A stretch of DNA of 64,000 nt from Erysipelothrix tonsillarum DSM 14972 (GTDB taxonomy: Bacteria > Bacillota_I > Bacilli_A > Erysipelotrichales > Erysipelotrichaceae). The translations under genes and the position numbers were made by a program. Below are positions 4,415 to 35,959 of the stretch, one piece after another. Positions within the stretch are counted from its first letter, which is position 1, and each line of letters starts with the position of its first letter. Below the pieces are notes generated by a model that saw nothing but the letters and a program-made list of their open reading frames with translations, was not told where the DNA came from and searched no databases. The stretch lies in the NCBI RefSeq assembly GCF_000373785.1, contig NZ_KB892377.1, forward strand, positions 522,934-586,933, given 5' to 3'.

Positions 4415-5317
4415 ATGAAAATCGATTTATCAAAAATTGGAACTGAACGTCAAAATTCCAATACAACGAATATCGACCGACTTGATACTGTTGAGATGGT
4501 GGCATTAATCAATGCTGAAGATCAACGCGTCATTGATGCTGTTGGCGAGCAAACACATGAAATCGCTGCAGCAATTGATGCAACATATGATGTTATTACG
4601 CACGGAGGTCGACTTGTTTACATTGGTGCGGGGACATCTGGACGCCTCGGAGTCTTGGATGCTTCAGAATGTTTACCTACTTTTGGTGTAGGGGAAGAAG
4701 CAGTTGTAGGTATTATTGCCGGAGGTGATACGGCGCTACGACACCCAGTCGAAGCAGCAGAAGATAATGATGAAATGGTTATTAAGGACTTGCAAGACAT
4801 TCAATTTTGCGAGAAAGATATCCTATGTGCAATTGGTGCTTCGGGACGTACACCGTACTGTATTGGTGGTCTCAAGTATGCTAAAGAAATTGGTGCACAA
4901 ACCATTTCCGTAGCTTGTGTTGCAAACAGCGAAATGGCGAAATATGCCGATCATCCAATTGAAACCGTTGTTGGCCAAGAAGTTATTACTGGATCTACTC
5001 GCATGAAATCTGGATCTGCAACGAAAATGGTTCTTAATATGATTTCAACGGGCGCAATGATTAAGTTAGGGAAAGTTTATGGAAATCTCATGGTTGATGT
5101 CAAAGCCACAAATGCCAAGTTAGTCGAACGTGCTCGTAATATTATTATGAATGCTACCGGTTGCGACTATAATCGCGCCGCTGATTTGCTTGAACTGAGC
5201 GATCAAAACGTCAAAGTTGCGATTGTTATGGAAATGTGTAATAGAGATTACAATGCGGCTCAAACACTTTTAGAAGAAAATCAAGGTCGTATTGCGCTCG
5301 CATTAGAAAATAAATAG
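4415..5317 (+). CDS. murQ: N-acetylmuramic acid 6-phosphate etherase MurQ
   Basis: Cleaves the lactyl ether of MurNAc-6-phosphate to give GlcNAc-6-phosphate and D-lactate in the cytoplasm. The 300-residue length is typical. The SIS-domain signature GAGTSGRLGVLDASE (ending at E85, the expected catalytic glutamate) and the VEAAED segment (near residue 113) are intact, as is GSTRMKSGSATK. It has its own promoter and sits between the RpiR regulator and anmK, 8 bp from the latter. Confidence 0.97.
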   Translation: MKIDLSKIGTERQNSNTTNIDRLDTVEMVALINAEDQRVIDAVGEQTHEIAAAIDATYDVITHGGRLVYIGAGTSGRLGVLDASECLPTFGVGEEAVVGIIAGGDTALRHPVEAAEDNDEMVIKDLQDIQFCEKDILCAIGASGRTPYCIGGLKYAKEIGAQTISVACVANSEMAKYADHPIETVVGQEVITGSTRMKSGSATKMVLNMISTGAMIKLGKVYGNLMVDVKATNAKLVERARNIIMNATGCDYNRAADLLELSDQNVKVAIVMEMCNRDYNAAQTLLEENQGRIALALENK

Positions 5318-30508: not shown

Positions 30509-31670
30509 GAATTTGCTCCTTTAAAACGGAACGTGTTGTTTTAAATAAATCTTGTTTAAGCTCCTTATTAAGACGTTGAATGATATCATTGACAGTAATT
30601 TCTTCCAAATCGTCAAAAATATTGAGTTGCTCAATAACTTCATCTTGCGGCATTAAATTTGCCATTGTAACTGCAATGAATGTAACACCACCGGCGCCTT
30701 CAAACTCATCATAGAGACTCATAATTCGTTCAAACATCATATTTTTGTCAGATATATAGTTTTCAAACGTATAGGATCGAGCAGCTGTTTTATAGTCATC
30801 TAAACGAATTGATAAAGAGATTGTCTTTCCAAGCATACCCCGCTTTTCCATCCGCCTAACTACCTCATCGAGTTCATTTAAAATCGCAGTTCGAATTTCA
30901 TCAAGATCAGTCATCGGATCTTTAAATGTTTTAGATTGGCCAATTGACTTCATCATTATATCCGTATCAATTACAGAGTAGTCATAACCTTTTGCTTTCT
31001 CTACAAAACTCACAGCATTAATACCCAAAATAGATTTTAAGTGATCCGGATTTTGACTTGCTAAATCCCCAATGGTATTAATTCCAAGCGTTTTTAATCG
31101 TGGAACAGTTTTTTTACCGATACCGTGCATCGCTTCAATGGGCATCGGCCATAGCTTTTGCGGCACTTCTCGAATACGTAAAACTGTGATACCACGTGGT
31201 TTCTGCATATCACTCGCCATTTTCGCTAAAAACTTATTCGGTGCAACTCCGATAGAAATGGGAAGACGTAATGCTTCCCAAACTTTTTTTTGAATTTCAA
31301 CGGCTAAATCAAGTGGTTTTTCATATCGTTGAATCACTTCGGTCATATCAACATAACATTCATCAATACTTGCCGGTTGCATCATAACTGAATAGGACCG
31401 AATGATGTTCATAAATTTGACAGAAAGATCTTGATATAACGCGAAATCAACTTCTATGACTTCTAATTGCGGACATAAGCGCTTTGCATGGGCCAAGGGC
31501 ATTGCAGAGTTAACCCCGTAAGCTCTTGCTTCATAAGAGGCCGTTGTAACTACAGAACCGCGTTGATTACTGCAGACAGCAACAGGCTTTCCATATAAAG
31601 TAGGATCTGTGATTAGATGTGCGCTTGCATAAAAAGCATTAATATCAATATGAAAAATCACTTGTGCCAT
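30498..31670 (-). CDS. dinB: DNA polymerase IV (DinB, Y-family)
   Basis: Error-prone translesion polymerase. 390 residues with the catalytic IDINAFYASAHL and PASIDECYVDMT metal motifs (usual SIDEAYLD), SIGVAPNKFLAKMASDMQKP and the HhH segment MHGIGKKTVPRLKTLGI. The C-terminal little-finger domain is complete. Starts 13 bp inside recN. No LexA-type site was seen upstream, so it probably follows operon transcription. Confidence 0.93.
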   Translation of the reverse strand: MAQVIFHIDINAFYASAHLITDPTLYGKPVAVCSNQRGSVVTTASYEARAYGVNSAMPLAHAKRLCPQLEVIEVDFALYQDLSVKFMNIIRSYSVMMQPASIDECYVDMTEVIQRYEKPLDLAVEIQKKVWEALRLPISIGVAPNKFLAKMASDMQKPRGITVLRIREVPQKLWPMPIEAMHGIGKKTVPRLKTLGINTIGDLASQNPDHLKSILGINAVSFVEKAKGYDYSVIDTDIMMKSIGQSKTFKDPMTDLDEIRTAILNELDEVVRRMEKRGMLGKTISLSIRLDDYKTAARSYTFENYISDKNMMFERIMSLYDEFEGAGGVTFIAVTMANLMPQDEVIEQLNIFDDLEEITVNDIIQRLNKELKQDLFKTTRSVLKEQIHEE

Positions 31671-33313
31671 TTTAATAATTGCCCTTCTTTTAAGAGTTCA
31701 TTAGCGGAATTCAAAGAAGCTTGTGTGTCATTACCCGACATGATTAAAGCCATTTGGCGAACACGTTCCGTTTCAACAATCTCATTAATGTCTGTAATGA
31801 TATCATCATGCATCTCTTTTTTAGAAATTAAGAAATGATGATCAGCACACGCGGCAACTGCAGCTAAATGCGAAATCGTTAAAACTTGAGAACTTTGGGA
31901 TAATTGACTCATTTTAGCACCGATTTTTAAAGCTACTCGTCCACTTACTCCAGTATCAATTTCATCAAAAACAATTGTCGAGACACCGTAAATAGAACTA
32001 AATATAACTTTTAAACCTAACATCAAACGCGAAAGTTCCCCTCCACTTGCAACACGTTCCAAGGGTGCTGGAGGAACACCTTTATTCATTGAAACGTTGA
32101 AATGTACAGTTTCTGCACCATCCTGATTGAACACCGATTCTTTGATTTCAACTTCAAATTGAGCTTGTTCTAATAATAAATCACGAAGCTGTTCAATCAC
32201 AGCTTTTTCCAACTTATTCTTAGCATCGAAACGTGTTTGGGTCAATGCTGATGCCGCGATTTTAAGACGATCATCAATCTCTTTTAGCTCATTTTCTAAA
32301 TCAATTTTGATATCATCAAAATGTTCTGCTTGATTTATCTGCGTTATTAAAAGTTCTTTTTTATTAAAAATGCCCTCAAGTGATCCATATTTACGGATTA
32401 ATTGATCATATTGATATCCACGGTTTTGCAAATTATTGAATTCAAATTCATCAAAAATAAGAGTACTGTTATACTTTACAAGTTCATCACGAATATCTTC
32501 CACTTCGTAATATACATTTTTATAACGATTCTCAAGTTCCTCATTTCGAATCGATTGTATCGTATCGAGATATTGGTACAACGTACCTACAACACCCTGA
32601 TTACCATCTAATATATCCTCTAATTCAGTCACAAATGATTTTGTTTTTTCAAAATGTGATAACGTTTCCAATTGATTGTTTATTTGTTCATAATCCTCAA
32701 AACTTGGATCTAATTCTTGGATTTCTTGAAGTTGAAAGCGTGCAAACTCGATTTCGTCAGGATTGATACTGCTATGATTAAGATCTTCAATACGTTTTAA
32801 GGTTTGATGATATTCCTTAAGAATCTCTCGATAAATTGTGCGTTCTTTATCATTTTGCGCATACGCATCAAGTAGATGTAAATGGTTTTTGGGATTTAAG
32901 AGATATTGTGTTTCATGTTGTGAATGAATATCCAACACACCATCAAGAACGTGTTTAACCGTCGAAAGATTAACAACACGTTGGTTAATTTTACATACAC
33001 TTCTTCCCTCTTCATTCATCTCACGTGAAAAGACCGCATACTCTTCCTCAGGATCATACATATCAAGCGCTGCAAGTTTATGTCTTAAGTTCGTTGCTTT
33101 AGAAAGATCAAAAGCAACTTCGACACGCGCACTCTTTCCATGCTTACCAACAATACTCGCACCACTACGTTGACCTGATACAAAATTCATTGCATCAACT
33201 AGTAGTGACTTACCAGCACCTGTTTCACCCGTAAACACGTTAAACTTATCCGAAAAATCAACCGAAATATGTTGTATCAAAACAAAGTTATTGATTGTTA
33301 AGTGAGTTAGCAT
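31658..33313 (-). CDS. recN: DNA repair protein RecN
   Basis: SMC-like ATPase for double-strand-break repair. 551 residues: Walker A FTGETGAGKSLLVDAMNFVSGQ near residue 30, a central coiled-coil region, and the C-terminal ATPase half with ERVASGGELSRLMLGLK (signature) and TIVFDEIDTGVSG (Walker B). TAGGAGG precedes the ATG. In many Firmicutes argR and tlyA lie between dxs and recN; here both are missing and recN directly follows the dxs-like gene. Confidence 0.96.
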   Translation of the reverse strand: MLTHLTINNFVLIQHISVDFSDKFNVFTGETGAGKSLLVDAMNFVSGQRSGASIVGKHGKSARVEVAFDLSKATNLRHKLAALDMYDPEEEYAVFSREMNEEGRSVCKINQRVVNLSTVKHVLDGVLDIHSQHETQYLLNPKNHLHLLDAYAQNDKERTIYREILKEYHQTLKRIEDLNHSSINPDEIEFARFQLQEIQELDPSFEDYEQINNQLETLSHFEKTKSFVTELEDILDGNQGVVGTLYQYLDTIQSIRNEELENRYKNVYYEVEDIRDELVKYNSTLIFDEFEFNNLQNRGYQYDQLIRKYGSLEGIFNKKELLITQINQAEHFDDIKIDLENELKEIDDRLKIAASALTQTRFDAKNKLEKAVIEQLRDLLLEQAQFEVEIKESVFNQDGAETVHFNVSMNKGVPPAPLERVASGGELSRLMLGLKVIFSSIYGVSTIVFDEIDTGVSGRVALKIGAKMSQLSQSSQVLTISHLAAVAACADHHFLISKKEMHDDIITDINEIVETERVRQMALIMSGNDTQASLNSANELLKEGQLLKWHK

Positions 33314-33328
33314 GGTAAGCCTCCTATT

Positions 33329-35107
33329 CTATGAAAAATGATCAAATACGTCGTTTATGTGCATGTTTTGCGCTGATTTTACATCCTTAGATGTTTTATC
33401 GAGGTGAAGCCATTCAATATGCATATCAATACACTCATTTTTCGCATTATGATCTCTAAGTTTGCGAACAATGTTTTGATAGAGAATCCCATTTGTACTT
33501 TCGACATCATAAATAACCATTTTGAGATTTAAATCAATGATTTGTTTAAATATATCGGCACTCACAGATGTAATTTCAGAACAATTAATTAAACCTACAT
33601 CCAACTGATTCGTAAGAATCCTTTGTCTGAGAATCTTGACGGAAGGACCAAATGATAAAATAACACCTTTACTGGATTCGCTAAAAGCATGCTCTACATG
33701 CCATGATTCAACCGGTTCAAGAATTGTATCGGGTTCAACATACTCAAGTCCAGACGGAATTCGGAGAATACTCATTTCATGAGCCAGTACCGCATGCTCC
33801 AAAATTGAAATTGTATCAACAATTGATTTTCCCATATACACTTTAAAGTGTGCAAGATTGCTGCATAATCCTAAGTCAAAGACACCTTGTTTATAGAGAT
33901 CCCCTTCAGGATTTAACCCTGCTTCATTAATAATTATTGTAATGGGACATTGCTTCAGTGCAAATTGATTTCGTAATTGCATAACAACCCCATCAAACTG
34001 CGATGCATGAATTGAAAGAACGACACGTTTTCCATCATGAATCAGCCCATGTGCCATGGTAACCAGTGCTTGAGTTGAGCCAGAAGTGGCAATGAATCGT
34101 TCTGGACAGGTTAAGGCAAAAGTTGGTAGATAATCCTTCAGTTTAAATGCATCTGCAAGAACGTATAAATCGGGATCATCTTGTGCAATATCGGTGAGTT
34201 GATAATCAATCGCCTCCAAATAAGAATGATAATTCTCTGCACGATCATGATCTGTTTTAAACGTAGGAAACTCAAGTTTTCTTTGCTTCTTATTTTTAAG
34301 TCGCGTTTGTACATGAATTACGTGAGGTCCTTTATATTTTTTTGATAATTCAAAAACACGGATTAACTCTTTTAAATTTTGTCCATCAATGGGTCCTTGA
34401 TAGTCTACACCAAATTGTTTAAATATGGTTGGTTCCAACACAGTTTCTTTCACCGCATCGCGGATTTTTGTCAGTGTTGTTAAGATTGGACGACTTATTG
34501 GATTTGAATCTAAAAGAGATTTCATATCTTTTTTTAAACCAGTATATGTCTTGCTTATCCGAATGGATTTAATCAGTGCATCCATAGAGCTATAGTGACG
34601 CAGGAGCGATTGTTGTTCATCTATTAGAATAATCGTTAAATTGGGTTTAAAACGACTTATTTGAACCAAAGATTCATACGTAACACCATAATTTAAAACA
34701 TAATCATTCATAATAATGACGTTATTCACATTAGGATGTTCAATCGCATAACTTAAAGCGACTCCCAACCCTTCTCCAGGCTTCCCACCACTATATCGAT
34801 CACATTCTTTATGGTCATCAAGGTACATCGACCCCGAGTTCCTTAATAAAAGTTCATCAGAACGACCTGTTAAGATTTTATGAACCATAACTTGTTTACC
34901 ACCGTCAAAAATAATATTATCACGATGCCAGTCAAATACATGGTGCAAAGCGAGCGTTGTTTCAAGTACATTGATATTTTCGATAATTGTATCAACCTCA
35001 TAACGTGTCTCTGACGCAAGAAAAACAGCGATTTCATCACCCAGTTTTTCTAATTCATCAATTGTTAGAGTATTAAAATCATACGATTCGTTAAATTGTT
35101 CAAACAA
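33329..35107 (-). CDS. Degenerate DXS-like protein lacking thiamine-diphosphate motifs
   Basis: 592 residues that align along the whole of 1-deoxy-D-xylulose-5-phosphate synthase (HKILTGR at 76-82, GPIDGQNLKEL at 238-248, FDLGL at 410). The catalytic equipment is gone: DVGHQ is DGGKQ (68-72), the GDG of the ThDP/Mg site is MND (133-135), NDNE is IDEQ (162-165), the catalytic Glu of IAEQHA is Thr345, DRAG is NEAG (394-397) and THQG is YKQG (405-408). It sits in the classical dxs position after ispA. Starts at a TTG with AGGAGG eight bases upstream. The frame is intact, so a non-enzymatic or altered role is likely. Confidence 0.88.
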   Translation of the reverse strand: MFEQFNESYDFNTLTIDELEKLGDEIAVFLASETRYEVDTIIENINVLETTLALHHVFDWHRDNIIFDGGKQVMVHKILTGRSDELLLRNSGSMYLDDHKECDRYSGGKPGEGLGVALSYAIEHPNVNNVIIMNDYVLNYGVTYESLVQISRFKPNLTIILIDEQQSLLRHYSSMDALIKSIRISKTYTGLKKDMKSLLDSNPISRPILTTLTKIRDAVKETVLEPTIFKQFGVDYQGPIDGQNLKELIRVFELSKKYKGPHVIHVQTRLKNKKQRKLEFPTFKTDHDRAENYHSYLEAIDYQLTDIAQDDPDLYVLADAFKLKDYLPTFALTCPERFIATSGSTQALVTMAHGLIHDGKRVVLSIHASQFDGVVMQLRNQFALKQCPITIIINEAGLNPEGDLYKQGVFDLGLCSNLAHFKVYMGKSIVDTISILEHAVLAHEMSILRIPSGLEYVEPDTILEPVESWHVEHAFSESSKGVILSFGPSVKILRQRILTNQLDVGLINCSEITSVSADIFKQIIDLNLKMVIYDVESTNGILYQNIVRKLRDHNAKNECIDMHIEWLHLDKTSKDVKSAQNMHINDVFDHFS

Positions 35108-35119
35108 GAGACGTGCCTC

Positions 35120-35959
35120 CTATAATTCGCGACTCATCATTTCATCAATAATTATTTTCAGATTTCCATTTTCAATTTTCATTTCAGCTAGTAAATCTTT
35201 AATTCGTACAAAGTATGTTTCGGTGAGGTCTTGGGCACCTTCAATTCCCAATAAACTCACAACTGTAGTTTTATTTCGATCAGCATCACTCAAATTACTT
35301 TTACCAATTTCTTCCGAAGATTTTGTCACCTCTAATAAGTCGTCTTGGAATTGAAAAGCAACACCTAGAGTATATCCGAGGTCATGGGCTAAATGCTGAT
35401 AAGTAGCTTTGCCCGCAATTACTGCTGCCATTTCAAATGCAGCAGCAAATAAACATCCTGTCTTAAGTTGATAACAAGCGATTAAATCATCAATATGATC
35501 AATTCGATCATGAATATCCAGTTCTTGGCCTAGAATCATACCAATTGCGCCAGCATTTCGCGCCAAGATTTCAAGACACATAGCTTTGGTGTCCGAATCG
35601 AGTTGCGACTGAGACAAGGCCGTAAAGGCACCCGTTAAGAGTCCATCGCCCGCGAGAATCGCAACCCCTTCACCAAAAACTTTATGGTTCGTTGGTTTAA
35701 AACGTCTCACATCATCATCATCCATGGCCGGTAAATCATCATGAACCAGTGAATATGTATGAATCATTTCCAATGCGCAAGCAGGATACAACCCCTTTTT
35801 ATAATCCATTTCAAAATCATTTAACATTGCTAAAAGAAGCTGAGGACGCAATCGTTTCCCGCCACTCATAAGTGAATAAGTCATCGCCTCACGTACAATC
35901 GAATTTATTGGGTAGTAATCCATAATTGTCGCTAATACAGCATCTAATTCTCTAATCAT
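35120..35959 (-). CDS. ispA: Polyprenyl (farnesyl/geranylgeranyl) diphosphate synthase
   Basis: Condenses isopentenyl diphosphate with allylic diphosphates for lipid carriers. 279 residues; GGKRLRPQLL, the first aspartate-rich motif HDDLPAMDDDDVRR and the second FQFQDDLLE are intact. The residues before the first motif (MIHTYSLVHDD) fit a short-chain farnesyl-type enzyme. Overlaps xseB by 8 bp and is 12 bp upstream of the DXS-like gene. Confidence 0.94.
   Translation of the reverse strand: MIRELDAVLATIMDYYPINSIVREAMTYSLMSGGKRLRPQLLLAMLNDFEMDYKKGLYPACALEMIHTYSLVHDDLPAMDDDDVRRFKPTNHKVFGEGVAILAGDGLLTGAFTALSQSQLDSDTKAMCLEILARNAGAIGMILGQELDIHDRIDHIDDLIACYQLKTGCLFAAAFEMAAVIAGKATYQHLAHDLGYTLGVAFQFQDDLLEVTKSSEEIGKSNLSDADRNKTTVVSLLGIEGAQDLTETYFVRIKDLLAEMKIENGNLKIIIDEMMSREL

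Follow-up and report, generated by a model that had tools for sequence, protein, structure and literature searches.

In DXS, a mobile loop borders the entrance of the active site. For the DXPS of M. tuberculosis, crystallography revealed that this loop (residues 190–234) is non-conserved and disordered; its replacement by seven glycines changed the activity little, and its truncation was suggested to ease access (PMC9068908). Apart from DXS itself, the protein described here belongs to a common fold family with the DXPS-like subfamily of ThDP enzymes (PDB 9kpq) and the DXS-like proteins of PRK12315. While those are described as ThDP enzymes or score against their own model, our protein, here called pseudo-DXS, is devoid of the catalytic residues. 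With pseudoenzymes in general, i.e., inactive homologues that persist as regulators or scaffolds, it has in common a retained fold, lost catalytic residues, and purifying selection; unlike in these, the death of the enzyme recurs in one gene slot across several lineages. The open-access papers searched revealed no pseudoenzyme derived from DXS and nothing relevant on isoprenoid synthesis in Erysipelothrix.

The window analyzed in this study comprises 64,000 nucleotides of the genome of Erysipelothrix tonsillarum DSM 14972, in which all genes discussed below lie on the minus strand. Homology, fold, and orthologues identified the pseudo-DXS gene (33329..35107, stop codon included), which starts with TTG and encodes 592 aa in one frame of 592 codons without internal stops. 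It is preceded by the ribosome-binding site AGGAGG (35116..35121), evident from the sequence and kept in orthologues, which start with TTG, ATG, or GTG and again display an AGGAGG-like site. The gene occupies the dxs slot in the order nusB-xseA-xseB-ispA-dxs-recN, with ispA (35120..35959) as its upstream and recN (31658..33313) as its downstream neighbor, an order that is conserved in relatives. The intact 592-codon frame with a good ribosome-binding site and the classical order nusB-xseA-xseB-ispA-dxs, already described in an initial annotation made from the sequence alone, were both seen again, the latter in the window as well as in relatives. An assembly or frameshift artefact was ruled out by intact frames in 13 independent genomes. 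The AGGAGG of recN is located just past the pseudo-DXS stop codon (window positions 33313–33331) and the intergenic region measures 15 bases, so that recN and the dead dxs may be translationally linked.

Similarity to DXS spans pseudo-DXS from end to end. The Pfam model PF13292 (DXP_synthase_N) yielded 155.5 bits, above its cut-off of 21.2, while the DXS equivalog TIGR00204 remained at 183–184 bits, far from its cut-off of 466, and PRK12315 scored 133 bits, far under its cut-off of 510. An AlphaFold2 model (pLDDT 81), in which the loop is modelled at low confidence, matched the DXS crystal structures 6ouv and 6xxg with a Z of 34 and an rmsd of 3.3 Å over 522 residues, thus predicting a DXS fold. 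Pseudo-DXS resembles the enzyme in its full-length fold, its slot, and its PF13292 score, but differs in its score below the equivalog cut-off, in the missing remainder of the MEP pathway, and in the loss of the catalytic Glu, His49, His299, Arg398, His431, and the contacts to the ThDP diphosphate.

These losses were located by aligning pseudo-DXS to E. coli DXS and 25 live DXSs of related genomes; in general, alignments at 20–30% identity can misplace single residues. Threonines occupy the positions of the catalytic His49 (T40, 34988..34990) and Glu370 (T345, 34073..34075). The former DVGHQ is now DGGKQ (residues 68–72, 34892..34906), GDG is N134-D135-Y136 with the Asp kept (34700..34708), and NDN(x) is IDEQ (162–165, 34613..34624), in which Glu164 replaces Asn as second metal ligand; further downstream in the protein, DR(A/S)G became NEAG (394–397, 33917..33928) and TH(Q/H)G became YKQG (405–408, 33884..33895). 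In addition, GHSST is exchanged for GKPGE, Y392 for H367, and YPRG for IPSG; of the KGKG...WHG stretch, which has been either deleted or replaced, nothing recognizable is left. Among H49, E370, H431, R398, D152, and N181, only the equivalent of the metal-ligand D152 is retained (D135, kept in 12 of 13 Erysipelothrix orthologues), whereas N181 is Glu (E164) in 11 of 13, the exceptions being two deep Erysipelothrix MAGs. The same losses are common to all 13 Erysipelothrix orthologues, which argues against chance. The initial annotation had proposed a search for such orthologues and had claimed that all ThDP and catalytic motifs were lost; its listed losses hold, but the claim is slightly overstated because of the kept metal-ligand Asp, and what it read as MND in place of GDG is N134-D135-Y136 in our alignment.

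The kept Asp and the acidic residue at the second ligand position would be in line with a ThDP enzyme that still catalyzes another reaction and dispenses with the catalytic Glu, in the manner of glyoxylate carboligase. However, H49, H80, K289, H299, Y392, R398, H431, and R478, which belong to the diphosphate, pyruvate, and GAP sites, are gone, and their positions are mostly unconserved among the orthologues, which makes this very improbable.

Matches of the genome-contig scan were confined to eight Erysipelothrix loci and are thus uninformative on dead DXSs in other phyla; all named relatives were Erysipelothrix. Regarding the isoprenoid pathway, no dxr was present in any of the 13 Erysipelothrix genomes, while 225 of the 273 genomes of the family contain this gene, and ispH was absent from all six Erysipelothrix genomes tested. 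Of the 13 Erysipelothrix genomes, all encode HMG-CoA synthase and 12 encode HMG-CoA reductase; in the genome of the window, the genes of mevalonate kinase (MVK), diphosphomevalonate decarboxylase (MDD), phosphomevalonate kinase (PMK), and type 2 IPP isomerase (IDI2) form a single operon (MVK-MDD-PMK-IDI2). A second DXS was not found in this genome; the search for one yielded only a 659-aa ORF of transketolase length and a protein of 326 aa that is similar to an E1-beta or split-transketolase subunit. A leftover MEP pathway is ruled out by the missing dxr and ispH. Since these genes are absent, mevalonate genes are present, and the window's genome has no other DXS, gene content indicates that the mevalonate pathway supplies the isoprenoids of Erysipelothrix and that pseudo-DXS is not needed as DXS.

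To what extent selection acts on the gene was assessed in the two closest Erysipelothrix pairs, for which pseudo-DXS revealed dN/dS values of 0.039 and 0.049 at unsaturated dS (0.26 and 0.56). In the same pairs, values were 0.035 and 0.034 for IspA, 0.084 and 0.068 for XseA, and 0.087 and 0.100 for RecN, so that pseudo-DXS is similar to IspA and below XseA and RecN. The frame is free of stops in 13 of 13 Erysipelothrix genomes. A decaying pseudogene, its frame open by chance or for translation into recN, would fit the fast evolution of the slot in some other lineages (31% identity between the slot copies of G177 and G186 versus 68% for their IspA) and its loss in relatives. Yet for Erysipelothrix, we give this explanation hardly any credence: dN/dS values of 0.04–0.05 exclude decay, and likewise a frame kept solely for translational coupling, which preserves a frame and not amino acids; moreover, one segment is extremely conserved. 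A fresh pseudogene is ruled out by the same values. The initial annotation, which had named orthologues riddled with stops or a dN/dS near 1 as findings that would speak against it, thus proposed a pseudoenzyme in the dxs slot rather than a fresh pseudogene in agreement with the intact frames, the low dN/dS, and the exchange of the MEP pathway for the mevalonate pathway; for the latter, it had suggested a search elsewhere in the genome.

The conserved segment lies inside the protein, a shift of constraint that could not be seen in the window alone. Residues 175–226 (34430..34585) correspond to the DXS loop that is disordered and not required for catalysis, as concluded from PMC9068908 and from the truncated K. 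pneumoniae DXS 8a8y, in which just this part is missing (the alignment covers 10–174 and 227–415). In 31 live DXSs of family and order, this segment is the least conserved (31% mean identity), whereas in Erysipelothrix it is the most conserved, with 67% among 13 species and 72% among eight diverse ones, followed by residues 227–270 (64–70%). In contrast, the pyrimidine domain, formerly harboring Glu370, Arg398, and His431, displays 33–35% identity in Erysipelothrix versus 55% in live DXSs. Taken together, identity, entropy, and dN mark residues 175–270 (34298..34585), i.e., the mobile loop and the GPxDG region, as the most constrained part in Erysipelothrix, with a close-pair dN of 0.026 compared to 0.080, 0.137, and 0.247 in the other segments. 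Because the loop is conserved in Erysipelothrix and dispensable in M. tuberculosis DXPS, the dead protein preserves a segment that is not required for catalysis.

Homology to an enzyme whose essential catalytic residues are lost, together with long-term purifying selection, characterizes pseudo-DXS as a probable pseudoenzyme, a former DXS with a non-catalytic task that would be maintained by selection and exerted by binding. Catalysis would have been lost and DXP no longer made, while gene position and fold were retained. As judged from the constraint, the N-terminal domain and the loop may form a putative binding surface for another macromolecule, so that the protein, as a scaffold or regulator, most likely acts through this region by binding a putative partner. 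IspA, encoded next door, is a candidate for this partner only. The suggestion of the initial annotation that pseudo-DXS has a regulatory or scaffolding role in isoprenoid or DNA-repair functions receives no direct support, since the arrangement of the genes goes back to the ancestor of the entire family and is thus uninformative on a new partner. A new ligand or cofactor, the latter also suggested there, retains some probability.

The main rival to such non-catalytic binding is a rebuilt cofactor cavity that binds another ligand, perhaps a metal at D135 and E164, with the protein sensing this ligand or acting as a new enzyme and the conserved loop serving as its lid. Conserved residues specific to Erysipelothrix at or near the former active site, namely T40 (formerly H49), N139-Y140 (after GDG), D319 (formerly the Pro of TPAM), and G343, are consistent with this, as are the retained D135, the acidic E164, and the position of the loop at the active-site entrance. 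On the other hand, the pyrimidine-side half (361–420) is now the less conserved part, the positions of H80, H431, R398, and R478 are freely variable between orthologues, and E164 is missing in the two deep MAGs mentioned above, so that we consider a rebuilt pocket unlikely.

A dead and yet retained slot is not confined to Erysipelothrix, which was likewise invisible from the window. We read the slot in roughly 50 genomes from the family and the order, chosen mainly for the lack of dxr plus some relatives, so that the frequencies of its states outside Erysipelothrix are not estimates; many of these assemblies are incomplete and dS is saturated in most pairs. Three kinds of content were identified: a live DXS, an interval between ispA and recN that is empty or harbors an unrelated ORF of about 240 aa, and a full-length dead DXS homologue. 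The last kind occurs in about eight lineages besides Erysipelothrix, i.e., in G021 (614 aa), G259, seven g68 genomes, G298, G177/G186 (g3), G228/G044 (g33), G167, and G079. In a phylogeny built from NusB, XseA, XseB, and IspA, nine changes are required to explain the dead state, at least seven of them on well supported branches. A single ancestral death of all dead copies is not favored, as live copies interrupt the dead ones and at least seven changes are forced; for example, the congeners G207, G227, and G014 are live, in contrast to the dead G021, G228/G044, and G177/G186. Genomes of g68 harbor a dead slot copy and a live dxs beside dxr in another operon. At the g68 loci L155, L156, and L157, this live dxs directly follows dxr and precedes a gene similar to RseP-type (site-2) proteases, away from the ancestral slot.

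The nine dead lineages largely agree in which of the live-invariant residues they kept and which they lost (variance of 7.34 versus 2.04 ± 0.26 after shuffling), a pattern that also holds with seven lineages. Lost residues are those of the active site, while N44, L79, E145, R183, Y188, F229, Y236, G238, P239, G242, H265, G487, and D516 tend to be kept. Only R183 and Y188 of these thirteen lie within the loop; the others may represent the fold core. Residues 175–270 again showed the lowest dN in the dead pairs of g33 and g3, and the slow segment was not seen in the g68 pair. A dead g68 copy has a good predicted fold (pLDDT 84), with the loop at low confidence as well. Some dead copies outside Erysipelothrix, in lineages with a fast-evolving slot, may be decaying, and the slot is deleted in several relatives, in which its role is therefore dispensable.

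The deleted slots include those on L101, L102, and L103 (G037, G285, and G288), with no ispA recognized between xseB and recN on L102. Further genomes differ in their isoprenoid genes. G021, with its dead slot DXS at 5127–6971 of L039, is without dxr; HMG-CoA reductase and ispH are present along with only two GHMP kinases, and its whole genome revealed no convincing HMG-CoA synthase. In G037, G285, G025, G177, and G231, ispH was detected and neither dxr nor a DXS above the cut-off was found; these may use a type II DXR and obtain their DXP from elsewhere. The two g33 genomes, G044 and G228, keep the dead full-length DXS and IspA, while dxr, ispH, and HMG-CoA reductase were not found; they may rely on isoprenoids from outside, or their assemblies may be incomplete.

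As dead copies persisted in separate lineages and their retained residues largely coincide, we infer, less firmly than the binding surface, that DXS may already have had a non-catalytic role beside catalysis in this family. In its extended form, this would mean that DXS of the family has a second role seated in the mobile loop and GPxDG, which keeps the gene when the catalytic part, once unneeded, dies, and that this happened independently about seven to nine times. The acquisition of a mevalonate pathway or a second dxs, or the loss of isoprenoid synthesis, would be the triggers. We put this forward tentatively, as a possibility somewhat short of probable.

For the genus, the metabolic annotation is corrected, as a dxs match in Erysipelothrix does not equal an MEP pathway. 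Should the proposed role hold, a drug-target enzyme that has been studied well can have a task besides catalysis that persists once catalysis is lost, and this task would reside in a segment so far regarded as dispensable (175–270 here; the loop of about 190–234 in M. tuberculosis DXPS). With its dead, live, and deleted slots, one bacterial family offers a natural series for seeking this second function.
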